Source: an uncultured Acidobacteriia bacterium
GTDB lineage: Bacteria > Acidobacteriota > Terriglobia > Bryobacterales > Bryobacteraceae
Length of the DNA: 64,000 nucleotides
NCBI GenBank assembly: GCA_903907865.1
Contig: CAIVPR010000044.1
Location: 248,001 to 312,000, forward strand
Reading direction: 5' to 3'
In this document: positions 7,442 through 25,822 of the stretch, piece after piece
How positions within the stretch are numbered: position 1 is the stretch's first letter
How the letters are laid out: each line of letters opens with the position of its first letter
Notes under the pieces: model-generated
Seen by the model: only the letters and a program-made list of their open reading frames with translations
What the model was told of the DNA's origin: nothing
Databases searched by the model: none
Translations under genes and position numbers: made by a program

Positions 7442-7466
7442 GAGTCGCGTTGATACCCGTAGATGA

Positions 7467-7517
7467 CGGTTATGGCCGCCTGAAAGGCGGCTGCAGCCAA
7501 GAATGGCTGCCCCACAA
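7467..7517 (+). repeat. Dispersed double-hairpin repeat family R2, copy 1
   Basis: Two adjacent hairpins between the TolC-like gene and the adaptor gene: GCCGCCT-gaa-AGGCGGC at 7475-7491 and GCAGCCA-agaa-TGGCTGC at 7493-7510, with flanks CGGTTATG and CC(C/T)ACAA. Copy 2 lies at 22096-22147. The second hairpin is identical in both copies. The first differs by two base-pair swaps that keep the stem intact. Its position inside an operon suggests a possible effect on mRNA processing or stability, but this is inference. Confidence 0.85.
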
Positions 7518-11700: not shown

Positions 11701-11836
11701 GGCCGGTCGGGAGATCGAGGGGCCGATGGCGCTGGTGATTCTGGGGGGATTGGGGACTTCGACGGCGTTGAATTTGTTGGTGTTGCCGGCGTTGGCGTTG
11801 CGGTGGGGGCGGTTTTCGGGGGTGTTGGAGGAGTAG
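8744..11836 (+). CDS. RND efflux pump, heavy-metal-efflux-like (CzcA/CusA-type) inner membrane permease
   Basis: A protein of 1,030 residues, the usual length for this family. The N-terminus starts with an RND pattern (MLSRLVEISIRFRGIVMALA). Twelve membrane segments occur in two groups (about 13-33 and 335-560; 530-550 and 860-1020) with two large periplasmic loops. The proton-relay helix 4 reads AIAIGEVVDDAIIDAEN, typical of the HME-like branch. The gene begins directly at the adaptor's stop. Exported substrates (metal ions or organic cations) cannot be decided from sequence. The last 900 bp show strong enrichment of G in wobble positions, unlike the first half. Confidence 0.92.
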   Translation: MLSRLVEISIRFRGIVMALACLVAAYGYYTIRNAKFDVYPEFSPPQVVVQTEAPGLSSQDVESLVTRPVESALNGTPNLAALRSNSIQGLSVVVATFEDQIDVYRARQMVSERIGEAATQLPQGVQPPAMAPLVGATSLTLIVGLTSEERSLMELRSFADWTMRPRLLGVKGVARVAIFGGEIRQMQIQLHPDRLAAFGLSLSDVTAAAKNATGLRGAGFIETDSQRVVLQTEGQSLTAEQLGDVVLPTKDASKVVRMRDVAQVVDGAEAKIGDATIMGKQGVMIHISGQYGANTVEVTNAIEAALEELKPAIAAHKIRLYGDLFKPANFIVEAIRNIGNSLLLGAVLVGLVLLLFLFNIRVAFISLTAIPLSLFIAVILLDRWGVSLNTLTLGGLAIAIGEVVDDAIIDAENIFRRLREAPRPLSRADIFRIVRDASIEVRSAVVYATFVVALVFVPVLALSGVQGRLFAPLAWSYILAIMASLVVALTLTPAMCFAMLPPVLDKVREPEFVRRMKLGYGRLVAGLARHTLAIVGVTVLVCIGAAAWVPSMGGEFLPEMREGHFIVHMNLLPGTSLKETVRVGGIVTRELLTHPGVRLVSQQIGRAELGDDTEGVHSSEIHIDLKPGVIKEPEVTEDELRKKVANVPGPAVSINPFLTERMDEIIAGSTAQVVVNVFGDDLDVLDKKAAEVAKVLATVKGAADIRVESPPGTPQINIRLRPERLRQFGLQPGTVLEEIQTAYQGSVVGEVHDKERVFTVATILDDAARGDLASIGALTFQNAAGLRVPLRELAEIAPGSGRYNIPHSGTRRRQTVGCDVNGRDLEGFVAEVRSAVAAKVVLPPGAYISVGGASQARDAAQKEILTWSLVAAAGIVMLLAIVFQNWRNLMLVLVNMPFALVGGVAAVAMTGNNLSVGSLVGFVTLFGITMRNSIMMISHFEHLVREEDEVWGMAAAVRGASERLTPVLMTAIVTALGLLPLAVGSGAGREIEGPMALVILGGLGTSTALNLLVLPALALRWGRFSGVLEE

Positions 11837-11850
11837 GGGTTGGTGGGGGG

Positions 11851-12435
11851 CTCGGGTTCGTTTGGCAGAAGCTGAATTGCGCGTTGGACGACGGGCTCGG
11901 GTTCCTTTGGCGCATTTTTGGATGTGGGGGTTGGGGCGGTGTCGGGTCCGTTTGGCAGAATCCGAGTTTCGGGTTGGGTGCCGGGCTCGGGTTCCTTTGG
12001 CGTATTTTGGGATTTGGGGGTTGGGGCGGTGCCGGGTCCGTTTGGCAGAATCGGAGTTTCGGGTTGGACGTCGGGCTCAGGTGCCTTTGGCGTATTTTGG
12101 GATGTGGGAGTTGGGGCGGTGTCGGGTCCGTTTGGCAGAATCTGAGTTTCGGGTTGGGCGTCGGGCTCAGGTGCCTTTGGCGTATTTTGGGATGTGGGGG
12201 TTGGCGCGGTGTCGGGTCCGTTTGGCAGAATCTGAATTTTTGGTTGGCCCTGAGGCTCGGGTGCCTTTGGGGCATTTTCGGATGTGCGGTTTGGGGTGGT
12301 GTCGGGTTTATACGGCGACACCTGGACTGTGGGAGCTTCGAGCGTCTCAGGTTCGTGTGGCAGGGTTCCAGATCTCGGGAGCGCGTGGTGCTCGGGTTCC
12401 TTTCGCGCAGAATCATTCTGAATTTGTGACATGGT
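11851..12435. repeat. Phased 45-bp tandem repeat array (90-bp dimeric higher-order unit)
   Basis: Directly after the pump gene, a motif close to TTTGGCAGAA (odd units) or TTTGGCGTA (even units) recurs exactly every 45 bp at 11861, 11906, 11951, 11996, 12041, 12086, 12131, 12176, 12221 and 12266. Degenerate units follow in the same phase at 12311, 12356 and 12401. Alternate units are more alike, giving a 90-bp dimer; units between 11951 and 12235 are nearly identical. The period is a multiple of three, so frames stay open on both strands (a Pro/Asn/Thr-rich 30-residue repeat on the minus strand). No frame has a convincing start or ribosome site, and the open minus frame runs on through the pump gene as antisense. 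I treat it as a non-coding satellite-like array. Confidence 0.9.
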
Positions 12436-12726
12436 CCTGGCGCGGACAGCGGGCACGGGCACGGAAGTGCGGAGCCGTTCGGTGCCAGCCGAGATATGGT
12501 GGACACTTGGGTCGGCAACAGCGTTGAATTCGGATTGGGCGTAGGAATGCATCGGGTCATGATTGTACGCCCGATGGCGATAGATATCAGCCACACATCG
12601 ACCCTAGGACGGTGGCCGACGCCCGCCTTTCCAATTGATTCAGAAGGACTTGTCTAACGGCAGAACAATATTTTCGAGCGCGGTGACTGGGGTTACCGGG
12701 GTAGAAGAAACGCGGGGACTTGGGCT

Positions 12727-13050
12727 ATGAAGACTACCACTGAGGAAAAGCCGCTGCGGATGCTGAACCCGGTCCATCCGGGCCGGTTTCTGCGCTCCGA
12801 AATACTGGACGCTTACGCGCTTTCCGTGACGGACGCGGCGAAGGTGCTTGGGGTGTCGCGGCCTAGGCTGTCGAGCCTGTTGAATGCGAAGGCGGGACTG
12901 TCCGGGGAGATGGCGTTGCGGTTTGAGAAGGCGTTCGGGGTCGATATGGAAGCGCTGATGCGGATGCAGAACTCGTTCGACGTCGCGTCTGCGCGGCGGC
13001 CGGGGGCGGAAGTTGTGGTGGAACGGTTTGTACCTCGCGTGGCTGGCTAG
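12727..13050 (+). CDS. HigA-type antitoxin / XRE-family DNA-binding protein, no visible toxin partner
   Basis: A protein of 107 residues. It contains the VapI/HigA pattern: NPVHPGRFLRSEILDAYALS, then a helix-turn-helix (TDAAKVLGVSRPRLSSLLN, about 36-54), then ALRFEKAFG and a short tail. In HigBA modules the toxin gene lies just upstream, but no HigB-like frame is present in 12435-12726, so this looks orphaned. It converges on zorD, with two bases between the stop codons. It may regulate itself or neighbouring genes. The 290 bp upstream hold no other supported feature. Confidence 0.85.
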   Translation: MKTTTEEKPLRMLNPVHPGRFLRSEILDAYALSVTDAAKVLGVSRPRLSSLLNAKAGLSGEMALRFEKAFGVDMEALMRMQNSFDVASARRPGAEVVVERFVPRVAG

Positions 13051-13052
13051 CG

Positions 13053-16000
13053 CTACTGGAGCGGCTCGGAAGAGTCTGTGCCCAAATCGGCTTCCTCGAA
13101 AGCTTTTCGGCCGTCCGGTGCCTGGAGATCGGCAAAGTCGCTTGGGCTTACGTCGCCAGCCCCATTGAGCATGTCGGACGAAAGCTCCCGCTTCCACTTC
13201 AGGAGTGTGTCCAGCTTGGCGTCGAAGGTTAGGAAATCGGGGGCCACTACGACCGGATAGTAGACGTAAACGTTCTTCTCTTGGCCGATACGATAGGCCC
13301 GGTCAGTGGCTTGATCTTCCTTGGCTGGGTTCCAAGTCCGGGTGAAATGGATCACGTGGTTCGCAGCTTGGATGTTGACCCCAAAGCCCACCGCCAAGGG
13401 CGACAACACGATCACACCGAAACCTGGACTTTGCTGGAACCTCGCGATCCGCCGTTGTCTGCTGTGTGCATTCCCAGACGAGGCAGCGGTGTCCCCATTG
13501 ATGACGTCCGGAGTAAATCCGAAACGTGCCAACACCACCCGTTGGAGTGTTCGCTGTAGGTCGCGGAATTCACAGAAGATGATAGCCTTTTCGCTCCGCT
13601 TTTGGATGACTCCCAATTGGTGCGTCAGCCATGCCATTTTGGGGGAGTGGCGCTCGATCTCCGCAACGGGCTCCGAATCATTGGAGGCATGTCCGGGAGG
13701 CCGCGGATCCGAGCACAATCGCCGCAGGTATTGCAGGAGCCCCAAGGGCGAATTCAGCCCAGTGTTGCTACCACGCTCCCGGCGACGGAACGCCGCGACG
13801 GCATCCGCGTAGTGTCCTCGTTGACGGGCCGAAAGGGTCAGTGTCCGACAGGATTCGACTTCGATCTTGTTGGGCAGGTCTTTGGCAACCTCTGTCTTCA
13901 TTCGACGGAGCTTCTGGGGTTCGATCAGATCGCGAAGTTCTTGAATCCGGGCCTTCTCCTCCTCGGTCCGTGCTTCGATCGGACGACGATAGCGTTCGCC
14001 AAAGTTTTTCAGTGCGCCGAGCAGACCAGGCTGTACGAAGTCGAACAGGCACCAGATGTCGGTGAGTGTATTTTCCACGGGCGTGCCCGTACATGCGATC
14101 TTGAGGCGTGCATTTTGCTTCTTGGCTGCTCGCGTGACCAATGCGTTGGGATTCTTGATTTTTTGCGCCTCATCGCAAATCATCGCGGACCACTGCTGCG
14201 CGGCCAAGGAAAACTCAAGATCGCGCAGGGTTTCGTAGGTGGTCAGGACAAGTTGGGCCGAACCTAGCCAATCCGGAACTAAGAGGGACCTTACGCCCTG
14301 GCTGGTCAACTCAGTGCCCAGATTCCGCCGCTGGACTCGCTTTTTGGTTAGCGCCGGTCCATACAGAGTCAAGACCCGAATGGTCCCTGGCGAAAAGAAC
14401 TTGGAGATCTCTTCGTTCCAGTTCTCCAGCAATGAGACCGGTGCCACGACGAGAAAAGGGTTGCAACCGGGTTCGTGCTCGATCACGCCGGCAATGAATG
14501 CCAAGAGTTGAATCGTCTTGCCGAGGCCCATGTCGTCCGCCAAGAGCGCGCCCCGGCATGCTGATGGTGACAAACGCCAGAGTTGTTGCAACCAACCAAC
14601 GCCGATGATCTGGTGATCCTTGAGACGTACACTTGGTAGGAGCGACGAGGGCAAGCGGGCTGGCGCCCCGGTGGATAGTAGGAGTCCCCTGTTCTCGACA
14701 TAATCGAGCCTATCGACGTTGGGCTTGACGACCAGCCCTCGGCGTTCGGATGTTTGACTGCGGGTTGCGGCCCTCTGCGGGTCGAAGGAATTCTTCTTTA
14801 CGTCCTCGGCGGCCTTGTCCAAGGCTTGGAGCGCTTCTACGGCCTGCCGAACGGGAACCGGCTTGGGGCAACCGGGAAAGTCGAATGTCTCTCGATTTTC
14901 GGCCTCGGCATTCGCAAGCTCGGCACGGAATTTGCTCAGCGCTGGTTGATCAAAGACAATCGCGACCGTGTCGGTTCCGCCGGGAGGCGTGTAGCAGAGG
15001 CCGATGCTCACGTTCTCGGGGAACCATCCCGCATCGTTGCTCTTGCGTGCAATGAAGGGCGAGTAGTAGGGTTTCTCCACGCCAAACCCTTCGACACGTT
15101 CCGAGTATCTGGACAGGTCGAAGATGTCTGTGACCTTGATCCTACGGCCACGTCGCATTTCATCGAGCGCTTCGCGCAAGGTCGCAACCTGGTCGGACGT
15201 GTCACCCAGAATCTCGAGGTCATAGCCTTGCCAGTGACAGCATTGGGCTCCCGACTTCAACCTGCTTTCCAGCTTGCGCACGAACTTCTCGATGTCGTCG
15301 GCACCTTCAAATCGAAGTTCTTCCGATTTGAGTTCGCCGTGTAGCGTCTCTTCGACGAGTAGCGCACAATCGTTTGGATGGCCGTCGTCGTCGTGCCGCA
15401 CTTGGGCCGTAAACCGGGCAAATGAGATGCCCGCATCGTCGCGTGCTTTTTCGAACTGATCCGCGTCAATCACCTTGGAGGCGTCCGGGCCAAGGGCCGC
15501 GAAGGGGTTTCGAACAAAGGCTTCCGCCCGCTCTCCGGCGACGCGGCGACCGGGCATACGGCGCACTTCTTCCAGTACCGTCTTCACCTCTGGCGAGATG
15601 AGGATGTGGACCATTCCGTTGCCGTCGGGAATCTCGTAACGGTCGGGCACGCTGGGCATCCGGTCGAAGAATTCGAGCCAGCGCTCCGGCGCGCCATCGA
15701 AACGCGGCAAGACCTCCACTACGTTGGTTCCGGCCAGATCGCCCTTGCGGAGATCTATACGGAGGCGCTCCGGTGTCAGCACGACGGTCTTGCGGAGGAA
15801 GTCCGCCATGTTTGCAGTGCCGATGGCGTGGGCGCGAATCTCGGCCCAGGCCCTCCGGTTTACGTCGGGCCCACGGGTCGCCGCCGGTTGGCTCCTGAGC
15901 GCGGAAACGGATTCTACGATCCGCCAAACTGCTTCGGGGAGAATCGATGAGCGTTTTCCTGCTGTGACTACGGCTCCGACGATATCCACATTGCCCATGG

Positions 16001-16355
16001 GACGTCGGCCTTCGGAGTCGGACCACTCGGTGATGATTACGGAGAAGTCAGGGTCGGTGAGCGTTCCACGGCTGGCGAGCGATGGACGCCATGCCTCTAT
16101 CGGGGGGAGACCCAGCAGACCTAGGCTGGTTGCGTGGTCGGGCGAAGTTGCGACGCGGTAGAAATCAGCCCAAGACAGCAGCACTGTGTTCTCGTCTTGT
16201 ACCGCATATCCTTCATCCACCAGCTGTCCAAGGAAGAGCAACTTGGCTGTGTCGGGTCCAAATCGAGCGGGTGAAGAGAACCAACCAAAAAATTCCGGTT
16301 CTGATGCAAATTCAATCCCAGGGGCGCTCCACGACGTTCGGATAGCAAAATTCAT
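13053..16355 (-). CDS. zorD: ZorD: SNF2-family helicase/nuclease-like effector of Zorya type I
   Basis: About 1,100 residues, starting at the ATG at 16355 (MNFAIRTSWSAPGIEF), which overlaps the zorC stop. A long N-terminal region (1-570) has no common domain I recognise. The C-terminal half is a Swi2/Snf2 ATPase: DDMGLGKT at 607-614 (Walker A), DEAQ at 728-731 (Walker B), ACTGTPVENTLTDIW (motif III), and a helicase C domain with QATDRAYRIGQEKNVY near residue 1030. Length and architecture match ZorD, the DNA-acting cytosolic effector of type I Zorya. It is the last gene of a four-gene operon with zorA, zorB and zorC. Confidence 0.95.
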   Translation of the reverse strand: MNFAIRTSWSAPGIEFASEPEFFGWFSSPARFGPDTAKLLFLGQLVDEGYAVQDENTVLLSWADFYRVATSPDHATSLGLLGLPPIEAWRPSLASRGTLTDPDFSVIITEWSDSEGRRPMGNVDIVGAVVTAGKRSSILPEAVWRIVESVSALRSQPAATRGPDVNRRAWAEIRAHAIGTANMADFLRKTVVLTPERLRIDLRKGDLAGTNVVEVLPRFDGAPERWLEFFDRMPSVPDRYEIPDGNGMVHILISPEVKTVLEEVRRMPGRRVAGERAEAFVRNPFAALGPDASKVIDADQFEKARDDAGISFARFTAQVRHDDDGHPNDCALLVEETLHGELKSEELRFEGADDIEKFVRKLESRLKSGAQCCHWQGYDLEILGDTSDQVATLREALDEMRRGRRIKVTDIFDLSRYSERVEGFGVEKPYYSPFIARKSNDAGWFPENVSIGLCYTPPGGTDTVAIVFDQPALSKFRAELANAEAENRETFDFPGCPKPVPVRQAVEALQALDKAAEDVKKNSFDPQRAATRSQTSERRGLVVKPNVDRLDYVENRGLLLSTGAPARLPSSLLPSVRLKDHQIIGVGWLQQLWRLSPSACRGALLADDMGLGKTIQLLAFIAGVIEHEPGCNPFLVVAPVSLLENWNEEISKFFSPGTIRVLTLYGPALTKKRVQRRNLGTELTSQGVRSLLVPDWLGSAQLVLTTYETLRDLEFSLAAQQWSAMICDEAQKIKNPNALVTRAAKKQNARLKIACTGTPVENTLTDIWCLFDFVQPGLLGALKNFGERYRRPIEARTEEEKARIQELRDLIEPQKLRRMKTEVAKDLPNKIEVESCRTLTLSARQRGHYADAVAAFRRRERGSNTGLNSPLGLLQYLRRLCSDPRPPGHASNDSEPVAEIERHSPKMAWLTHQLGVIQKRSEKAIIFCEFRDLQRTLQRVVLARFGFTPDVINGDTAASSGNAHSRQRRIARFQQSPGFGVIVLSPLAVGFGVNIQAANHVIHFTRTWNPAKEDQATDRAYRIGQEKNVYVYYPVVVAPDFLTFDAKLDTLLKWKRELSSDMLNGAGDVSPSDFADLQAPDGRKAFEEADLGTDSSEPLQ

Positions 16356-18025
16356 CAATTCTCCACGAACCATCCGCGTGGTGGCCGCGGCCGAAAGCCC
16401 CGCTCCTTTAGCTCTTTTACGACAGTTGGTGAGAACGTCGTCCCGAGCACCCAAAACGCGCCGCCCTTGGCGCGAAGGTCCTCGACCGATAGGCTGTGGA
16501 CAGCCACAAAGGTATGCCATTCGCTCGCCGCCGGACCTCCGGTGTACTTCCTAGAACCCGGTGGCGCTCCCCTTGGCGGCTTTGGTGGTCGACCCAGGAG
16601 GGGGCAGAGGTGCGAGTCGAATTTCTGCTCCCAGCTTTCAGAGCGTGAATCTATGTGCCTGAGAGGTTTTTCACATTCCAGCCGCCGGAGGTCGTTGTGG
16701 CTGATTCGTTCAGCGGCCTTTCCCGTCAGTGCGGCTTCTACTGTTGAATCGAGCGATGACCATTTGAAAAGACGGCCCCCGCTGCCATACTCGCCAAACT
16801 CCACTGCGAGGTATTCGCCGATGCGCATCAAGAAAGCATTGTTCACAGCGGTCGAGTTCTCAAGGAACAGGCGGCGACCGCTGGCACTCCGTTTGAATTC
16901 CAAAAAGTGTTCGTCGTTTCGCATTTGAGCGTCGCGACCCAAGGCAAACCACATGTCGTCGATTAGCGGCTCGAACCGGAGCCAGTAGTCCAAGCGTCTC
17001 GCGTCGCCAGTACCGTCGGCGCTGAGGAGTTCAAAGAAGTCGGTGATGAGGCGGCGCTTGAGCCAGCCGTTGACCATTTCGCGGGCGACGTCGTTCGGCT
17101 TGCCCGTCCCGTCAACCACGTGTGCGTCCCATTTCACTCGCTGCAGCCATGGATTGCCGATTACGAGGACGGCGGCATCGCGGAGCCCAACGTGTTCGGG
17201 CCTATCGGCACACTTTGCGTACCGGGAGACCAACCGCGCAACGCAGCGAATGCGGAGTGACTGGCTGATCTCCACGCCACTTTTGCCGAGCGCAATGGCT
17301 AGAAGGCGATCAAGTGTCTCGTGGAAGGCATCATCAAGGAGAGCTGAGGCCGCACGGATTTGTTCGAGGATTGCCTTTACCGGGACCCACGAGGACCTTG
17401 GGATAGCGAGGCTGTTGATGGCATCGTTGAGCCCTGAGGCGTCGCCGACCAAGAGAGCCGCGCCGATTTTCCCGCAAGGCTCATCGCTCAGCAAGTCCAC
17501 GTGACGGGTGAGCGCCGCGAACCAGGAAGGCTTCGGCTCTTCATTGCTGGCAATCAGTTCGCGTTCGGACCGCAGCCATTTCCGGAGCACGCGCCAGCCT
17601 TGCCTTGCGTCCTCGGACACGGTCGTATTATCGAAGAGCGGGAAGGTCCAGTAACTCGAGAGCAGAGCTTGGAAAGCGCGAAGGCGACGACGCCATTCGG
17701 ATTGACCATCCGCCAAGCCGAACAGGTGCCATCTCAGCGTAGGATCAGCAAGCACGCACCAACCAGAGGCGTCGACGATTCCCGCTCCCAAGCAAACGTA
17801 CATGAGGTCCCGGAAGCTTTCGATGGTGCCTAAGCGCCGAAAATCCGTGATCGCAGCCATAATCGAGCGTGGATCGGTCGCGATTCCAGCGCCCCCCTGT
17901 TCCCGCTGGACACGGGCAAGGGCCTTGGTCATTCCGCCCTGGTCTGCCCAATTCTCAGGGGCATGGGCTAATTTGGGAAATGACAGCGACAGCTTAAGGC
18001 GCAGATCGAGTAAGGAGTCGTTCAT
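16355..18025 (-). CDS. zorC: ZorC: EH-signature protein of Zorya type I
   Basis: About 556 residues, from the ATG at 18025 (MNDSLLDLRLKLSLSF) that overlaps the zorB stop as ATGA; its own stop overlaps the zorD start. It is largely helical. Towards the C-terminus it carries the EH-signature region (RRLFLENSTAVNNAFLMRIG, then EYLAVEFGEYGSGGRLFKW, then a His-containing segment). Proteins of this family are found with ZorA and ZorB, and are thought to be cytosolic DNA-binding effectors. The four gene junctions overlap or nearly touch, so expression is probably coupled. The assignment rests on gene order and the EH motif together. Confidence 0.93.
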   Translation of the reverse strand: MNDSLLDLRLKLSLSFPKLAHAPENWADQGGMTKALARVQREQGGAGIATDPRSIMAAITDFRRLGTIESFRDLMYVCLGAGIVDASGWCVLADPTLRWHLFGLADGQSEWRRRLRAFQALLSSYWTFPLFDNTTVSEDARQGWRVLRKWLRSERELIASNEEPKPSWFAALTRHVDLLSDEPCGKIGAALLVGDASGLNDAINSLAIPRSSWVPVKAILEQIRAASALLDDAFHETLDRLLAIALGKSGVEISQSLRIRCVARLVSRYAKCADRPEHVGLRDAAVLVIGNPWLQRVKWDAHVVDGTGKPNDVAREMVNGWLKRRLITDFFELLSADGTGDARRLDYWLRFEPLIDDMWFALGRDAQMRNDEHFLEFKRSASGRRLFLENSTAVNNAFLMRIGEYLAVEFGEYGSGGRLFKWSSLDSTVEAALTGKAAERISHNDLRRLECEKPLRHIDSRSESWEQKFDSHLCPLLGRPPKPPRGAPPGSRKYTGGPAASEWHTFVAVHSLSVEDLRAKGGAFWVLGTTFSPTVVKELKERGFRPRPPRGWFVEN

Positions 18026-18750
18026 CGAGTTGTCGGGGAATCGTTCGGACAGGTGGTGTCGTCGTCCCACTTGATCTCCCGCGCTAGTTCTTGCGGGGCA
18101 CCAAGGTCGCGGAACTCCAATTTCAATTCCACACGACGCATCTCGGCTGGGCTCTTCGAAACAGTATTGAACGACGAGCCGCCCGTGAGGAAGAGTGTGC
18201 GGACCTGTTTCCGGTCCGCTAGAGAAAGCGCGTTATCGGCGTGAGAATTCAGGACTGCGCACAGAACGCGTTGGGATCGGAGAAAACTTAGATTCAGGTT
18301 GTATAAATACGAGCCCTCCTGGCTCGCGAAGCCTTCTACAACGACTCGTTTCAGCCACTTCTTGCAACTATCCTGTCGCGCCACGTCCAATACCTTGGGG
18401 ACGAAGGCACGAACAAAGTGCTCTTGGGCCGCGTCCAGCCTGTGGTCGTTGTTCCTGAACTCGGCCAGAGTGCCAAACTCTATCGAATAGCCCCTGAGAA
18501 GAACACCCTTGAACTCATCCCTCTTCGCAAGCGCGCCCATGTCGACCATGCAGCTGCTAATCGTCTCATCTCTCGCTTGTCCTTCTTTCTTGATCTTCGC
18601 CAAACCTTGGGTCACTGCCATCAGTGCCACGGCCATGGCGACGAGGAAGAGGACCATCAGGGCGGTCATGAGGTCCGAGAACGAGATCCAAAATGGTTTC
18701 TCTGCCTCATCCTTTCCCCGTCGATTCCGTCTGCCTTGGATTCCAAACAT
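18022..18750 (-). CDS. zorB: ZorB: MotB/OmpA-like motor subunit of Zorya type I
   Basis: A protein of 242 residues with a short cytosolic N-terminus and one membrane helix (FWISFSDLMTALMVLFLVAM, about 20-45). This carries Asp26 at the place of the proton-binding aspartate of MotB. A periplasmic OmpA-like peptidoglycan-binding domain follows (about 80-225; VVVEGFASQEGSYLYNLNLS, SQRV). With ZorA it would form a proton-driven stator-like complex anchored to the cell wall. The start lies two bases after the zorA stop. Confidence 0.95.
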   Translation of the reverse strand: MFGIQGRRNRRGKDEAEKPFWISFSDLMTALMVLFLVAMAVALMAVTQGLAKIKKEGQARDETISSCMVDMGALAKRDEFKGVLLRGYSIEFGTLAEFRNNDHRLDAAQEHFVRAFVPKVLDVARQDSCKKWLKRVVVEGFASQEGSYLYNLNLSFLRSQRVLCAVLNSHADNALSLADRKQVRTLFLTGGSSFNTVSKSPAEMRRVELKLEFRDLGAPQELAREIKWDDDTTCPNDSPTTR

Positions 18751-18752
18751 AC

Positions 18753-20753
18753 TTAGCGCTTCCTTGGGGGCAGACTTTCGACGGTGTCCCCCAGATCCTT
18801 GATGGCACCTGAAAGCAGCTGGACCGCCGTTGACAGCTCGCCTTGAAACTGCCGGTTGCCCTCACGGAGCGTACGCTCGACACTCTGGGCGAACTTCTCA
18901 TGCGCCTCAACTAGAACATCATTGATGCCTTCAAGATACTCCTGGGACTGTCCTTGGGCCTTCGCCAGTTGGGTCGTGGCTGCTTCGATGCGTCCGATCA
19001 ACTCGGACGTCATGGATGCATCCTTCTTCGCATTCTCCACTGTCGCCTTCAAGTCCGCCACCATAACCGCAAACGTGCTGCGCGTCCGTCCGTAATCGTC
19101 GAGGATGCCCTTGGTGCCGGTTGTTGCCAAGGCGAGTTGGGTTGACGCGGCCTTGATGGTTTCGACTGCCGCTGCCGATGACCGCATCGTTTCCGAGACG
19201 CCTTGTCCGGCCTTGGCGAAATCGCTGGAAGCAATGTACAGCATTTCCGCACCGGAGTTCATTCCCGAGATTGCCTTGTCGGTAGCCGCAGCCAGAAGGG
19301 CGACCGTGTTCTGCAAGGATTTGTTCGTTTCCACGGACTGGCGGAGTAGGCTGTCGGTCTGGGCTGAAAGGGAGCCAATCACGTCGCCCGTGCTCTTTTC
19401 AAAGCGCTGTTGACGGTCGCCTTGCGATTCCGCCGACGCCTCGGCTTGTTTCCGCAATTCTTCCACAACTCCCGAAACCTGCGTGCCGAGGGCTGCCAAG
19501 ACTTCCTGGAGCTTCTTCGAGGACTCGCTTTGGGACTCGGACACCAGGGCGCGGATCTGATCCACGAAGGCGCCCATCTGGGTGTTCATGACGTTTTGAC
19601 GGGCTTCCATGGCTTCCAGCGCGCGATTCATCCGCTCTCCCATGGCTTCCACCGTCCCGGTACCGGCAGCGTCCATGTTCGCGGCAAGCTGGCCGAACTG
19701 CTGGGCAGTGGCTTGCATCGATGCGCTCGTCTGTCTAAGGAGTTCAGCCATGCCTTCCATTTGTCCGCCGAAGATTCTGCGCATCTCCTCCGCGAAACTT
19801 GCAAGGACATCGGTCAGCAGTCGGTTGACAGCCTCGCCCTGACTAGCACCAACACCGCGGACCGCAACTGCGATGTCAGTCATCGGTCCGCCCAAGCTTT
19901 CGCTGATGGCCTTGCCTACATCCCCCGACATCTGGCTCGTCTGGCGGGACTGGGCTTCAATCTGGCGGTTGGTAATTTCGTCCAAGATCAGCTTGAGGTC
20001 GGTGACCAGAGAGTCTTTGATGTGAGCGGCCTGGGTCGCAGAGATTTCCGAGGCTTCGGCCAAGCGTTTTAGGTATTCCTCGCCGGCACCAACCTCGAAA
20101 AGACTGTCGATCAGTTCACAGATTTGACCGACTCGCCTATAGAGGCGGGCAATCACGAGCTTTTCGGTCAATGTAAATGCCATCGCCAAGGCAATCGCCG
20201 TGGCGGAGACCCAGAAGGCGTGGGAGACCGAACTGAGCAATTGGCCGAGCTGGGCTTGGACCTCTGTAACGGCATTCTTATCCGAAACCTTAAACTGGCT
20301 TAGACCCGAGATGAGCCCGCCAAATGTCCCGATGATCCCGAGACCGGTGGCAAGGCCGGGCAGGTGCTTGTAAAACTCGGTCTGCAGCGGCGTGTCAACC
20401 AGTGCCTGTTCGGTAAAGAAGGTCTCAGCCAACGCGGTCGCCCGCCACTGGACGATTCGGCTTTGGCCGCTGCCGTCGTCAGCGCTTTGGGGGTGGAGCG
20501 TCTTGACGTATTCCTTCCAGATTTTGGTCAACGTCGCGCCGTCCATAGCCTCGGCGATACCGTCCAGATCGACCACATGGCCCGTTGGCGTTTTGATTGC
20601 GTGGAGGGCTTCGCTGGATCGAGCCAACTCCCTCCGGGTACGCCAAGCAGAAGGAAGAAAAGCTCCAACGAAGACAATCGCAAAAGCGAGCAAGAAGCCG
20701 CCAACTAGGAATAGGTGCCAGTAGTTGGAGAGGACGCCGGTGAGTTCAGTCAT
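18753..20753 (-). CDS. zorA: ZorA: MotA/ExbB-like motor subunit of Zorya type I with long helical tail
   Basis: A protein of 666 residues with membrane helices near 12-33, 131-152 (LPGLATGLGIIGTFGGLISG) and 175-196 (HAFWVSATAIALAMAFTLTE), matching the MotA/TolQ/ExbB proton channel. From about residue 240 to the end it is a long coiled-coil tail (repeated Ala/Gln/Glu heptads) reaching into the cytosol, a feature reported for ZorA and needed for signal transfer. It is the first gene of the zorABCD operon. Upstream, a TATAGG-like sequence lies 6-12 bases before the ATG, but no clear Shine-Dalgarno is seen. Confidence 0.95.
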   Translation of the reverse strand: MTELTGVLSNYWHLFLVGGFLLAFAIVFVGAFLPSAWRTRRELARSSEALHAIKTPTGHVVDLDGIAEAMDGATLTKIWKEYVKTLHPQSADDGSGQSRIVQWRATALAETFFTEQALVDTPLQTEFYKHLPGLATGLGIIGTFGGLISGLSQFKVSDKNAVTEVQAQLGQLLSSVSHAFWVSATAIALAMAFTLTEKLVIARLYRRVGQICELIDSLFEVGAGEEYLKRLAEASEISATQAAHIKDSLVTDLKLILDEITNRQIEAQSRQTSQMSGDVGKAISESLGGPMTDIAVAVRGVGASQGEAVNRLLTDVLASFAEEMRRIFGGQMEGMAELLRQTSASMQATAQQFGQLAANMDAAGTGTVEAMGERMNRALEAMEARQNVMNTQMGAFVDQIRALVSESQSESSKKLQEVLAALGTQVSGVVEELRKQAEASAESQGDRQQRFEKSTGDVIGSLSAQTDSLLRQSVETNKSLQNTVALLAAATDKAISGMNSGAEMLYIASSDFAKAGQGVSETMRSSAAAVETIKAASTQLALATTGTKGILDDYGRTRSTFAVMVADLKATVENAKKDASMTSELIGRIEAATTQLAKAQGQSQEYLEGINDVLVEAHEKFAQSVERTLREGNRQFQGELSTAVQLLSGAIKDLGDTVESLPPRKR

Positions 20754-20967: not shown

Positions 20968-21239
20968 ATGCGTTTTTGATTCGACGTCGAGAAGAACCGA
21001 GCGGTCCTGCGGGAGCATGGTGTCAGCCTTGAACAGGCACGGGCCGTATGTGACCAAGTCTACCTGGTCGACAGGAAGAGCGACGACCCCGAGCCATTCC
21101 GCGCCATCGGCTGGGCAGGTGGGCGGTTGTGCTCAGCTGTCTTCGAGATTCGACGCGACGCTGAAGGGCAGTTCTATCGCTTGATCGCCGCTTGGAAGGC
21201 GACAAACAGGAAGAGGATGTCTATGCCGAACAAGTCTAA
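20968..21239 (+). pseudogene. Decayed BrnT-like (DUF497) toxin gene
   Basis: The frame from 20980 reads FDVEKNRAVLREHGVSLEQA, then AIGWAGGRL and VFEIRRDAEGQFYRLIAAWK, which is the BrnT/DUF497 pattern. Two lesions break it. A TGA at 20977-20979 falls at codon 4 after the natural ATG at 20968. Near 21203 one A is missing, so the frame runs on into the antitoxin; restoring that base gives the expected ending KQEEDVYAEQV and a stop at 21237-21239. The ancestral gene would overlap the downstream antitoxin start by 17 bp. The toxin is very probably dead. The 215 bp between zorA and this remnant hold no gene I can support. Confidence 0.78.
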
Positions 21240-21492
21240 ACCTTCGCCGTCGGTGGACGAGATCGCCGAGATGGCTACACGGGGCGAGGATGTCTCCGGG
21301 TTCTTCACCAACGAGTTCACGGTGGTGCGTCCTGTGCGGCGGGTCAACGTGGATCTGACGCCGGGACTGCTTCGTGAACTCGACGAACGCGCGGCGCGGT
21401 TGAACGTCAGTCGGCAGGCGGTTGTCAAGACGTTGTTGCTCCAGGCGTTGGATCAGGGTGGTGGTGGTCGGGCCACGTCGGAGCGCAGGTAG
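21223..21492 (+). CDS. CopG-type (ribbon-helix-helix) antitoxin, partner toxin decayed
   Basis: A protein of 89 residues. The ATG at 21223 lies six bases after GGAAGAGG. After a short N-terminal arm (DEIAEMATRGEDVSGFFTNE) comes a ribbon-helix-helix domain (RRVNVDLTPGLLRELDERAA, RLNVSRQAVVKTLLLQALDQ). This is the standard antitoxin for DUF497-like toxins, and its 5' end overlaps the remains of such a toxin. The antitoxin is intact, so it may persist as a repressor or as an anti-addiction gene against a related toxin, such as the BrnT 2 kb away. Confidence 0.85.
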   Translation: MPNKSKPSPSVDEIAEMATRGEDVSGFFTNEFTVVRPVRRVNVDLTPGLLRELDERAARLNVSRQAVVKTLLLQALDQGGGGRATSERR

Positions 21493-22032: not shown

Positions 22033-22095
22033 GATTCATTCTCCAACCTGATCTTTCGGAGAGTCAATGGTTGCTGGCTGGCGCTACCGAGATTG

Positions 22096-22147
22096 CGGTT
22101 ATGGCGACCTAAAAGGTCGCAGCAGCCAAGAATGGCTGCCCTACAAG
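22096..22147 (+). repeat. Dispersed double-hairpin repeat family R2, copy 2
   Basis: Hairpins GCGACCT-aaa-AGGTCGC at 22104-22120 and GCAGCCA-agaa-TGGCTGC at 22122-22139. Relative to copy 1, the first stem carries a C-G to G-C change and a G-C to A-T change, each compensated on the other arm. It lies between hicB and the putAbiC-like gene, in 180 bp without a gene. Confidence 0.85.
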
Positions 22148-22214
22148 TGTGCATAACGTGCTACCAGAGTCTGACGGGAAGGGCGGCCGAGGGCAGGCAA
22201 TACACAAAACGCGG

Positions 22215-23108
22215 TTAGCCGGTTTGTTCCCATTCGAAGTAGTCGGGGCAATCCCGGAAGAGCGCCTTGACGTCAAGTTGCTTCTTTGGGAAGAAATCCT
22301 CGGGCAGGTTGGACACCAGGTGGTAGCGCTTGATGAGCGACTGGTTGCGGGGCTCGCGGATGCCCCAGTCGCGACCTACGAGGATCAGACTGTCGAGGAG
22401 GAGAACGGCCTGCTCATGGTTCGAGAGTTGCGCGCGCAGCGTCTTCACGTACGCGTACTTGGTTTGCTGGTCGAATTGTTGCTGGTCCGCGTAGCAAACC
22501 GCTTGGTAAAAGTGCCTGTAGTAGTGGCCGAGCTGGTACTCCAGCCCTGGTTGGTAGAGTCCCTCGCGCCGAAGATCCGCAAGCAGGTGCTCCATCTCGG
22601 TCCTGCGTCCCGATTCCGACTCCAGCCTCCGCAGAGCCCGCTCCGGCTGAAGGGCCCAAGCCTCGTGGCCGTAGAAAAGATAGTCGAAGGCCGCCGCGTA
22701 GGGGTTCTCCCAGCCGCGGTCGGCGATGATTTCGGCTATCTTCCTGGCGCGGTCCACAACGACCGTGAAAAATTCGTTCGTCGAGTTGCCGCCGACCTGC
22801 AGGTCGCGGACATTCTGGCGGTGGATTTCAAGGAGGAAGAAGAACTTGGTTTCAAAGCTCTGGCGATCCAAGGCTTCACGCTGGGTGCGCAAGGTGCGGA
22901 ACAGCAGAAAGGCATTGGCGAGGGCGATGATCGAGCCCAAATAGCCCGCGACGAAACTCCCGACATGGTCGGCGGCCTCCCGGTCGGCCGCCGAATGTTG
23001 GAAAGTTAGCGCGTAGAAGAATATCGAGATGACGACGACGCCAATCAGCCAGCCGACCAGTTCCCAGGACCACGTGGCGCGACTGATTTTGACGCGGGAC
23101 TTCTTCAT
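22215..23108 (-). CDS. Putative phage abortive infection protein (putAbiC-like)
   Basis: A protein of 297 residues with two N-terminal membrane helices (about 16-36, WELVGWLIGVVVISIFFYAL; and 49-73, GYLGSIIALANAFLLFRTL). A charged coil follows (RTQREALDRQSFETKFFFLL), then a cytosolic helical domain with GHYYRHFYQAVCYAD and YVKTLRAQLSNHEQAVLLL. This combination matches the putAbiC family of membrane-linked abortive infection proteins, in which the His-Tyr-x-Arg and RAQLS motifs are conserved. The match is from memory of the family, not a search. It lies in an island with Zorya and several toxin-antitoxin genes, which supports a defence role. The start is four bases from a PQQ-dehydrogenase remnant. 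Confidence 0.8.
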   Translation of the reverse strand: MKKSRVKISRATWSWELVGWLIGVVVISIFFYALTFQHSAADREAADHVGSFVAGYLGSIIALANAFLLFRTLRTQREALDRQSFETKFFFLLEIHRQNVRDLQVGGNSTNEFFTVVVDRARKIAEIIADRGWENPYAAAFDYLFYGHEAWALQPERALRRLESESGRRTEMEHLLADLRREGLYQPGLEYQLGHYYRHFYQAVCYADQQQFDQQTKYAYVKTLRAQLSNHEQAVLLLDSLILVGRDWGIREPRNQSLIKRYHLVSNLPEDFFPKKQLDVKALFRDCPDYFEWEQTG

Positions 23109-23112
23109 CCGA

Positions 23113-23196
23113 TTAATCCGGCAGGCCGAATGACAAACTCGTCACGTCGGCAGCGACCGCGATCCGCTCCTTGCCGTCGAACTGGTACGCCATCGG
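23113..23196 (-). pseudogene. 3'-end remnant of a second PQQ dehydrogenase gene
   Basis: Read on the minus strand, this encodes PMAYQFDGKERIAVAADVTS and then LSFGLPD with a TAA stop. This matches the last residues of the intact PQQ dehydrogenase (23828-23911) at 77 of 84 bases by eye. Homology stops abruptly at 23196, just before the brnA stop. The two copies therefore flank the BrnT/BrnA module as direct repeats. The differences look like those of diverged paralogues rather than a fresh duplication. Confidence 0.85.
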
Positions 23197-23827: not shown

Positions 23828-25822
23828 TTAATCCGGCAGGCCGAATGACAAAATCGTCCCGCCCGCCGCCACCGCGATCCGTTCCTTGCCGTCGAACTGG
23901 TACGCCATCGGCGACGCCTTCCAGTTCTGGCTGGTCTGGAACGACCACAGCAGCTTTCCGGTCACAGCGTCGGCCGCCGCGAAGGCACCGCTGTCGTCGC
24001 AGAAGAACACGAGGCCGTTCGACGTGGCGAGCGTTCCGCCCCACGACTCGGCGCGTCCCTGCTGCGGCAATTCCCACTTCACGGCGCCGGTCTGGATATC
24101 CAGCGCGCGGAGGATGCGTTGCGACTTGCTCTTCAGGTCGGTGCGCTCGGCACCGCCGAGGAACGGGCGGCCCGCTTCCCAGCCGCCGGTCGGGCGCAGG
24201 CTGTAGATGGAGCATTTTTCGTTGGTCTGCATGTAGAACAGGCCGGTGGCGGGGTTGTAGGAGGGCGAATACCAGTTGGTCGCGCCGTCCTGCGAGGGGC
24301 AGACGCGGGTGCCGGCGGCGGTCGGTTCCTGACCGGCGACGCGGACGGGCTTGCCGTCGGGGCCGATACCGGTGGACCAGGTCAGTTCATTGATGAACTT
24401 CTTGGCGAGGAGGAGCTTGCCGTCGGTGCGGTCAAAGATGTAGAAGTAGCCGTTGCGGTTGCCGTGCAGGAGGAGTTTGCGGGGTTTGCCCTGCCAGGTG
24501 GCGTTGACGACGATGGGGGTTTCGGTTGTGTCCCAATCCCACTGGTCGTGGGGGGTGGTTTGGTAGTACCACTTCATCTTGCCGGTTTTGGCGTCGAGGG
24601 CGAGCATGGAGTCGGTGTAGAGGTTGTCGCCGCCACGCTCGTCGGCGTTGTAGTCGGGGCCGGGGTTGCCGGTCTGCCAGAAGATGGTGTCGGTGTCGGC
24701 GTCGTAGACACCGGTGAACCAGGCTGCGCCGCCGCCGTGGGTGATGCCGTTGCCCTTCCAGGTTTCGGAACCCTTCTCGCCGGCGGCGGGAACGGTCCAG
24801 ATGAGCCAAACGCGCTCGCCGGTGGATTGCTTGTAGGCGGAGATGAAGCCGCGGACGCCCTCCTCGCCACCAGCGGTGCCGGAGACGACCATGTCGCCGA
24901 CGACGATGGGGGCGGAAGTGGCGTTGTAGTTCTGGTGCCAGTCGGCCATTTCCTTGTCCCAGAGGAGGGTGCCGTCGGCGCGGTTGAGGGCGATGAGGTG
25001 GGCGTTGTCGGTCACCATGAAGACCTTGTCGCCCGCCACCGCCACGCCGCGGTTGTTGCCGCCGGCCGCGTTGCCGATCAGGTTGCGGGTGCGGGGACGC
25101 TGGTAGTGCCAGATCACGCGGCCGCTGCCGGCGTCGAGCGCGTAGCATTCATTGGCGTTGGTGACGAACATGACGCCCTGGGATACGACGGGCGTGCCTT
25201 GAAGCGCCGACCCGCTGGGCAGCGTGAAGCTCCAGCGCGGGCCCACCTGGCGCACGTTCAGCTTGCTGATTTGCGTCATGGTGGTGTAACGGTTGCCGGT
25301 GACGGAGCCGTTGTAGGTGGCCCAGTCGACTTCGGAGGTCACTTCACGGAATTTGTTGCCGTCGGCGCGGCGGAGCAGGTGGAGCCTGTTGTCGGATGAG
25401 ACCATCTGGACGTCGGTCAGGCTCTCGTTGAGGACGGTGCCTTCGACGGTCTTGCCGGTGGTGAGCGAGGCCTTGAGGGTGTACTTCTTGAAGCCGGTGT
25501 CGGCGGGCTCCATGAGCTTCAGGAAACCCGCGAGCTTGGCGAGCTCGGCAGCGGGGAGGTTGAAGGCTGGCATGCCCTTGGTGGGGACGCCGTTCTTGAC
25601 GACGGCGGCGATCTGCGCGTCGGTCAGATTGCGGACGCGGGCACCGGCGATGGGCGGGCCGAGTTCACCGCCGTTGGCGTCGGAACCGTGGCAGCCGGAG
25701 CAGCGGTTCTCAAAAGTGGTGCGGGCGACGGCGATGTCGGCGTCGGAAAGTTGGGGCGTCTGCGCCTGGACTAGGGCGGCAGTTGCGAGGAGGGCAAGGA
25801 GGGACTTCGACGGCATGGTCAT
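23828..25822 (-). CDS. PQQ-dependent dehydrogenase with N-terminal cytochrome c domain
   Basis: A protein of 664 residues. A signal peptide (SLLALLATAALVQAQ) is followed by a small cytochrome c domain with CSGCH at 41-45, and then an eight-bladed quinoprotein propeller (about 150-660). Recognisable pieces include GTAGGEEGVRGFISAYKQST, a PGPDYNADERGGDNLYTDSM-type segment and HDQWDWD. It is a periplasmic quinoprotein alcohol/sugar dehydrogenase; in this fusion the haem comes before the propeller, unlike type II alcohol dehydrogenases where it comes after. It lacks the adjacent Cys-Cys of methanol dehydrogenase. The last 84 bp are duplicated at 23113-23196. It is divergent from the TPR/UnbV gene, with 59 bp between the starts. 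Confidence 0.92.
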   Translation of the reverse strand: MTMPSKSLLALLATAALVQAQTPQLSDADIAVARTTFENRCSGCHGSDANGGELGPPIAGARVRNLTDAQIAAVVKNGVPTKGMPAFNLPAAELAKLAGFLKLMEPADTGFKKYTLKASLTTGKTVEGTVLNESLTDVQMVSSDNRLHLLRRADGNKFREVTSEVDWATYNGSVTGNRYTTMTQISKLNVRQVGPRWSFTLPSGSALQGTPVVSQGVMFVTNANECYALDAGSGRVIWHYQRPRTRNLIGNAAGGNNRGVAVAGDKVFMVTDNAHLIALNRADGTLLWDKEMADWHQNYNATSAPIVVGDMVVSGTAGGEEGVRGFISAYKQSTGERVWLIWTVPAAGEKGSETWKGNGITHGGGAAWFTGVYDADTDTIFWQTGNPGPDYNADERGGDNLYTDSMLALDAKTGKMKWYYQTTPHDQWDWDTTETPIVVNATWQGKPRKLLLHGNRNGYFYIFDRTDGKLLLAKKFINELTWSTGIGPDGKPVRVAGQEPTAAGTRVCPSQDGATNWYSPSYNPATGLFYMQTNEKCSIYSLRPTGGWEAGRPFLGGAERTDLKSKSQRILRALDIQTGAVKWELPQQGRAESWGGTLATSNGLVFFCDDSGAFAAADAVTGKLLWSFQTSQNWKASPMAYQFDGKERIAVAAGGTILSFGLPD

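Follow-up and report, generated by a model that had tools for sequence, protein, structure and literature searches.

Among the closest known counterparts of the operon reported here are the solved proteins of type I Zorya anti-phage defense, namely ZorA and ZorB (Protein Data Bank [PDB] entry 8qyd), ZorC (8r68) and ZorD (8qy7), all of which come from E. coli. The stretch of DNA that we analyzed (the window) covers 64,000 nucleotides of contig CAIVPR010000044.1 from an uncultured Acidobacteriia bacterium, and it encodes the same four components as the solved systems, but with distant sequences. According to the sections of Mariano et al. drawn on here (PMC11890865), the ZorA5B2 complex is an ion-driven motor, ZorD is said to carry an Mrr-like nuclease domain, deletion of any component of type I Zorya abolishes protection, and type I protection requires the ZorB aspartate, peptidoglycan binding and the ZorA tail. 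We propose, with a probability of roughly 0.85, that the window carries a type I Zorya anti-phage operon that was horizontally acquired by an acidobacterium and is probably working.

The type I Zorya operon and its four proteins

The operon consists of four open reading frames (ORFs) on the minus strand, from 20753 to 13053, in the type I gene order zorA-zorB-zorC-zorD. These frames and their junctions bear out the initial annotation, which had described four genes in this order that overlap or nearly touch. The zorA stop is separated from zorB by 2 nt (the junction was read directly), zorB and zorC have an ATGA in common, zorC and zorD have a TGATG in common, and none of the four genes contains an internal stop. 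An alternative GTG start of zorC, also open, lies 45 nt upstream of its ATG. The ATG chosen for zorD has 1 nt in common with the stop codon of zorC, and the zorD frame stays open for 55 codons further upstream, to an ATG at 16520 (a frame of 1,155 residues). With the zorD start at 16355, the positions quoted earlier for the Walker A motif (607-614, DDMGLGKT) and for DEAQ (728-731) are exact.

When the four proteins were compared with defense-system profiles, a check that the initial annotation had proposed, PADLOC assigned each of them best to its own type I Zorya family (ZorA1, E = 5.8e-238; ZorB1, 2.7e-87; ZorC1, 1.8e-174; ZorD1, E = 0 with 1,486.6 bits), and the ZorD1 model covers nearly the whole zorD product. 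The ZorA1 model aligns over residues 7-663 of 666 and the top PDB phmmer match of the protein is ZorA of 8qyd (chain 8qyd_A, 2.9e-80), in agreement with the long tail that had been claimed for ZorA; Pfam gave no match to ZorA at E ≤ 0.001. ZorB has its top PDB match in 8qyd_F (8.4e-47, spanning residues 6-227) and matches Pfam MotB_plug (3.6e-06). For ZorC, the evidence consists of the Pfam EH_Signature family (PF15611, 1.6e-26, 94 bits versus a cut-off of 27.5), a PDB sequence match to 8r68 that is aligned over residues 131-561 only (2.5e-26), and an AlphaFold2 model (predicted local distance difference test [pLDDT] 87.3) for which 8r68 (ZorC) alone matched in the PDB at E ≤ 0.001. ZorD matches the two Pfam families of an SNF2 helicase (PF00176, 4.7e-60; PF00271, 3e-13) and has 8qy7 as its top PDB sequence match (5.2e-247). 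The fold search with the ZorD model also returned 8qy7 at the top (9.2e-87); this model (pLDDT 79.7, predicted template modeling score 0.48) is good for the fold family only, as its domain placement is unreliable. ZorE, ZorF and ZorG, which belong to types II and III, had no PADLOC match in the four zor genes or in 10 neighboring ORFs (for ZorD, among the best 25 of 38 families). As far as sequence can tell, the operon is type I Zorya, a known kind of system, with four intact genes.

The helicase encoded by zorD could in principle be part of a Dpd or DISARM system instead of Zorya, given that the PADLOC DpdE model PDLC02854 matches it at 7.4e-252 (836.6 bits) and the DrmD model at 3.7e-25 (86.2 bits). 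However, the ZorD1 model scores far above both over nearly the full protein, the NCBIfam DpdE model reaches only 39.7 bits, zorD lies directly behind zorC, and ZorD of 8qy7 is the best match in both the PDB and the fold search. These scores and the operon context refute a Dpd or DISARM identity, to which we give next to no credence. Judging from the distance between the two DpdE scores, PDLC02854 may include ZorD-like helicases.

To the assignment by family can be added the conservation of individual residues, assessed in alignments of 69 (ZorA), 73 (ZorB), 73 (ZorC) and 67 (ZorD) rows, window included. Across the four genes, the window departs only once, at ZorC A416G, from columns in which 95% or more of the remaining rows agree. 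ZorA T143 and S183 are identical in 69/69 rows; ZorB R158, R206 and D26, the aspartate that had been placed at the proton-binding position, in 73/73 rows each; ZorC E409 and H457, which we infer to be the glutamate and histidine of the EH signature, in 73/73 rows; and ZorD GKT (612-614) and DEAQ in 67/67 rows. In our reading, ZorB D26, ZorC E409 and H457, and ZorD GKT and DEAQ pair with published mutants. With these residues intact, it is reasonable to suggest that the system may be functional. ZorB C164 and C234 are likewise identical in all 73 rows and may form a disulfide.

Table 1. Coordinates of the zor genes and of two neighboring genes in the window
Feature	Position	Strand	Description
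zorA	18753..20753	-	666 residues; MotA/ExbB-like motor subunit with long C-terminal tail
zorB	18022..18750	-	242 residues; MotB/OmpA-like, Asp26 at ion-binding position
zorC	16355..18025	-	556 residues counted from ATG; EH-signature protein
zorD	13053..16355	-	1,100 residues; N-terminal ZorD region and SNF2 helicase core; stops short of Mrr_cat
Helix-turn-helix (HTH) gene (HigA-like)	12727..13050	+	Pfam HTH_3 4.9e-08; convergent with zorD, stops 2 nt apart; outside the Zorya system
putAbiC-family protein (putative phage abortive infection)	22215..23108	-	Pfam putAbiC 1.4e-15; PADLOC AbiC 2.2e-07; GC3 0.80, host-like

The C-terminal nuclease domain of ZorD

The initial annotation had called the system complete, which holds for the gene set but not for ZorD, whose nearest full-length relatives end in an Mrr-like nuclease that the window protein lacks. 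Among the 67 aligned ZorDs, the distance from the RIGQ motif to the protein end is either 204-225 residues (39 rows) or 10-91 residues (28 rows, although the "short" label of L098, which ends unusually early at 10 residues past RIGQ, is doubtful). Pfam Mrr_cat was found in the tails of all eight long ZorDs scanned (loci L027, L030, L033, L073 and L034-L037) and neither in five short relatives scanned (L041, L026, L042, L044 and L050) nor in the window ZorD. All 39 long tails retain E33, D63, Q80 and K82 (alignment numbering), which we take to be the PD-(D/E)XK pattern. Scored by the Mrr_cat domain, 40 rows have it and 27, including the window, do not, because the Mrr domain of L041 was counted even though it lies downstream in another frame; L041 was therefore moved to the Mrr group, and 40 of the 66 relatives carry the domain while 26 are without it. 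In L041 (a Zoogloea metagenome-assembled genome [MAG], 11714-15386), a frame change splits zorD ahead of the Mrr domain. The window ZorD and those of its relatives run in parallel as far as the linker (...DVSPSDFADLQAPDGRKAF...), after which the window protein ends, and an unfiltered search with a profile of the long tails across six frames of the 64-kb window gave no match to an Mrr remnant at E ≤ 10.

The contrast can be seen in two loci that have the same gene order as the window, the type I Zorya of L030 (a Rhodoferax MAG) and that of L033 (Collimonas sp. OK412). Their ZorD proteins, of 1,256 and 1,257 residues, both end in Mrr_cat, whereas that of the window has 1,100 residues. The L030 protein is the ZorD most identical to the window's in the careful tree described below (69% over 1,065 columns), and the ZorCs of L030 and L033 are 53-54% and 50-52% identical to that of the window, respectively.

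We mapped the presence of the domain onto two ZorD trees. The sources number 78 (the window, 74 loci from genomes and 3 from plasmids), and the quick tree, built without the tail, holds the 67 that have a closed frame of more than 1,000 residues; it carries a warning that the long branches of L028 and L098 meet. On this tree the Mrr state changes seven times, with at least six changes forced by starred branches, and other short ZorDs cluster apart from the window in groups of 13 and 7 rows. Outside it stands L038 (Burkholderia cenocepacia NCTC13227, 5975-19850), in which zorB and zorD are fragmented, with zorD in pieces and Mrr present. The careful tree comprises 25 rows that were chosen after the quick tree was seen, with L028, L089, L098 and L100 excluded. 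It places the window in a seven-row clade (support 100/99, starred) together with L030, L033, L034, L035, L036 and L037, all of which bear Mrr_cat, and the Mrr state changes four times, at least three of them forced. In approximately unbiased (AU) tests of two groups that were named post hoc, after a tree had been viewed, a single clade of all nine short rows was rejected (p-AU = 3.5e-34), as was a clade (p-AU = 1.2e-4) that joins the window to the second short ZorD from an acidobacterium, that of L044. Because the nearest relatives of the window have Mrr, it was very likely the lineage of the window that lost the domain; such a loss is the simplest account, while unrooted trees cannot prove its direction. 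The length of ZorA did not separate the two states (medians of 686 residues in 25 short loci versus 678 in 37 Mrr-bearing loci). As for an Mrr nuclease acting in trans, two further Mrr_cat matches in the genome, in frames of 345 and 347 residues, lie on other contigs and have no link to Zorya.

Loss of the domain need not equal inactivity, since the solved ZorD is short too. The 8qy7 chain has 1,080 residues, too few to accommodate Mrr at the C terminus, and its residues 48-1075 align to 95-1131 of the 1,155-residue window frame; 8qy7 is absent from the ZorD trees, and the relation of its short form to that of the window lies outside their scope. Because Mrr is absent from 26 of 66 relatives and from 8qy7, we do not treat it as defining for type I. 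The 8qy7 protein reportedly has nuclease activity, in which case the short form of ZorD is able to work and the window ZorD would likely act in the same way.

The missing domain could nevertheless mark a decaying Zorya, in which an Mrr deletion disabled the system and the remainder has not yet eroded. Such decay would fit the retention of Mrr in the closest full-length relatives, with its four conserved residues in every long tail, and the lack of any remnant in the window. Yet none of the four frames is broken, almost every conserved residue is kept, short ZorDs occur elsewhere in the tree as separate groups, and the solved chain is short, which makes decay unlikely. A working operon would, as inferred from published work on relatives, act in steps: ZorB would bind peptidoglycan once phage injection has disturbed the envelope, ZorA would be driven by the flow of ions, the long ZorA tail would recruit ZorC and ZorD, and ZorD would attack the incoming DNA. 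Because the window ZorD is without a C-terminal Mrr-type nuclease, the ZorD core or some other source would have to provide any cleavage.

Several observations weigh against our proposal of a working, horizontally acquired type I operon. None of the four proteins reaches its NCBIfam equivalog cut-off (ZorA1, 371.5 of 750; ZorB1, 209.4 of 400; ZorC, 130.5 of 490; ZorD, 1115.2 of 1500), which is a curated naming threshold, applied here to the window proteins only. The only NCBIfam cut-off passed is that of the ZorA_3 subfamily model (443 versus 250), and the lower scores may, in our reading, reflect divergence from the proteins behind those models. The pairing of the window with L030 in the careful ZorD tree is weak (82/58). 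The ZorD trees are unrooted, and the choice between loss and repeated gain rests on the position of the window among Mrr-bearing rows. Finally, the absence of the nuclease domain could mean a loss of function.

Descent and setting of the operon

The genome (7.5 Mb in 186 contigs, 98% complete) is congeneric with G008, whose Zorya contig C277 (locus L031, 3,150 bp) is identical, when reverse-complemented, to RGPS01000348.1, a contig of the MAG Terriglobia bacterium isolate WB8_3_068. Because of this identity we assign the host to the acidobacteria, the lineage that had been suggested before. The L031 ZorC is 58-59% identical to that of the window; the L031 contig ends within zorC and zorD, and that of L029 also breaks off in or near zorD. 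The zorD end was not found in G008, where the remaining matches are lower-scoring SNF2 helicases, and a search of the G008 genome found zorA nowhere else, while zorB was not searched.

ZorC is rare around this host. With the genome of the window included in each count, a protein search at E ≤ 0.001 detected ZorC in 2 of the 19 genomes that represent the genus, and a ZorC profile at E ≤ 1e-15 detected it in 1 of 101 genomes sampled from the family and in 1 of 396 sampled from the phylum. A scan of named genomes with the ZorC alignment gave 74 loci out of 213 pattern matches, and four of the 74 (L029, L031, L043 and L044) are titled Acidobacteria, Acidobacteriaceae or Terriglobia. Among plasmid records, 24 of 72,556 matched ZorC, and no ZorC relatives were found in viral contigs and phage records.

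In a ZorC tree of 77 rows (quick method, L102 left out), 46 rows are labeled Betaproteobacteria. The window is sister to L031 (support 98, starred), followed by L029 (93) and by the Rhodoferax MAG L030 (96, starred). This group of four joins six Betaproteobacteria and L043 in an 11-row clade (98, starred), so that 7 of its 11 rows are Betaproteobacteria; the acidobacterial L043 branches beyond the group of four that holds the window, and L044 lies beyond the 11-row clade. In base composition, the GC content at third codon positions (GC3) of the four zor genes is 0.665-0.697, compared with a mean of 0.823 (standard deviation 0.028) in 22 other window genes that were hand-picked among the longer frames. 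The neighboring AbiC-like, HicB and HigA-like genes have GC3 values of 0.78-0.80, and BrnA has 0.76.

Vertical descent of the operon within Acidobacteriota, with its odd composition due to some other cause, could account for the grouping of the window ZorC with the two acidobacterial ZorCs, L031 and L029. However, the four zor genes, including those for soluble proteins, have much the same low GC3; the next wider ZorC clades take in the Rhodoferax MAG and six Betaproteobacteria; L043 and L044 branch further out; ZorC is rare in the phylum; and MAG contigs may have been wrongly binned. Given these observations, vertical descent appears improbable. We consider the horizontal acquisition of the zor operon to be well supported by composition and phylogeny, and the operon was probably taken from other bacteria.

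The exact insertion of the zor block is not supported in the way that its horizontal acquisition is. The resemblance to congeners at the DNA level breaks off near 11,800, the end of an RND pump gene, and at about 23,825, the end of a pyrroloquinoline quinone (PQQ) dehydrogenase gene. On the pump side, the contig of G015 ends there and those of G003, G006, G010 and G016 continue with different sequence. G015 and G018, the congeners with the most similar pump (97%), have a common stretch behind the PQQ gene, which in G015 contains a globin-ankyrin gene as well as multihaem cytochromes and a universal stress protein. In G006 the best pump and PQQ matches lie on separate large contigs, and a vacant site that retains both flanks was therefore not observed. 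Direct repeats of at least 15 nt between 12400 and 21600 amount to two pairs, all within zor genes and none flanking the block.

The flanks also contain repeats and toxin-antitoxin-like genes. About five tandem copies of an approximately 90-bp repeat (11833-12307) lie immediately behind the pump gene, and two close congener contigs end near them, G015:C57 at the pump gene end and G018:C933 inside the pump gene. The final 84 bp of the PQQ dehydrogenase gene occur twice (23113-23196 and 23828-23911, 91.7% identical), and a BrnA gene and a BrnT gene (2.1e-19) sit between the copies as though inserted at the 3′ end of the PQQ gene. At 20968-21492, a BrnT-like toxin reading is followed by a ribbon-helix-helix (RHH) antitoxin-like gene; the BrnT-like gene looks broken, because TGA is the fourth codon after its ATG, and the part after this stop matches Pfam BrnT_toxin (4.5e-09). 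A short interspersed repeat at 22075-22150 has at least 42 matches in the genome and a second copy in the window at 7461-7517. The name HigA for the HTH gene next to zorD (Table 1) is our reading. An accessory gene common to Zorya loci was sought among these neighbors and rejected: at E ≤ 1e-3, the ORFs of 77 related loci contain no counterpart of the AbiC-like, HigA-like, BrnA end, HicB and RHH proteins, except for one HigA-like gene in L096.

Meaning for type I Zorya defense

The locus is a rare though otherwise ordinary instance of a known system, in which only the absent domain is out of the ordinary, and it extends a well-characterized defense system to a lineage where that system is rare. 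The Mrr-like domain published for ZorD (PMC11890865) stands against the 8qy7 chain, which is too short for it. In the portions consulted of the literature that names both ZorD and Mrr, we found no account that contrasts ZorDs with and without the domain. The Rhodoferax and window ZorDs, whose cores are 69% identical and which differ by a whole nuclease domain, would allow a clean comparison of the role of Mrr in type I defense. A bolder and, in our judgment, doubtful hypothesis is that Mrr is a detachable module of ZorD, lost (or gained) many times, and that the acidobacterial system works without a dedicated nuclease, either because ZorC and the SNF2 translocase alone block phage DNA or because a nuclease from elsewhere in the cell is recruited. 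If this were true, the window would represent a natural deletion mutant with which to trace the source of the cleavage activity of type I Zorya.

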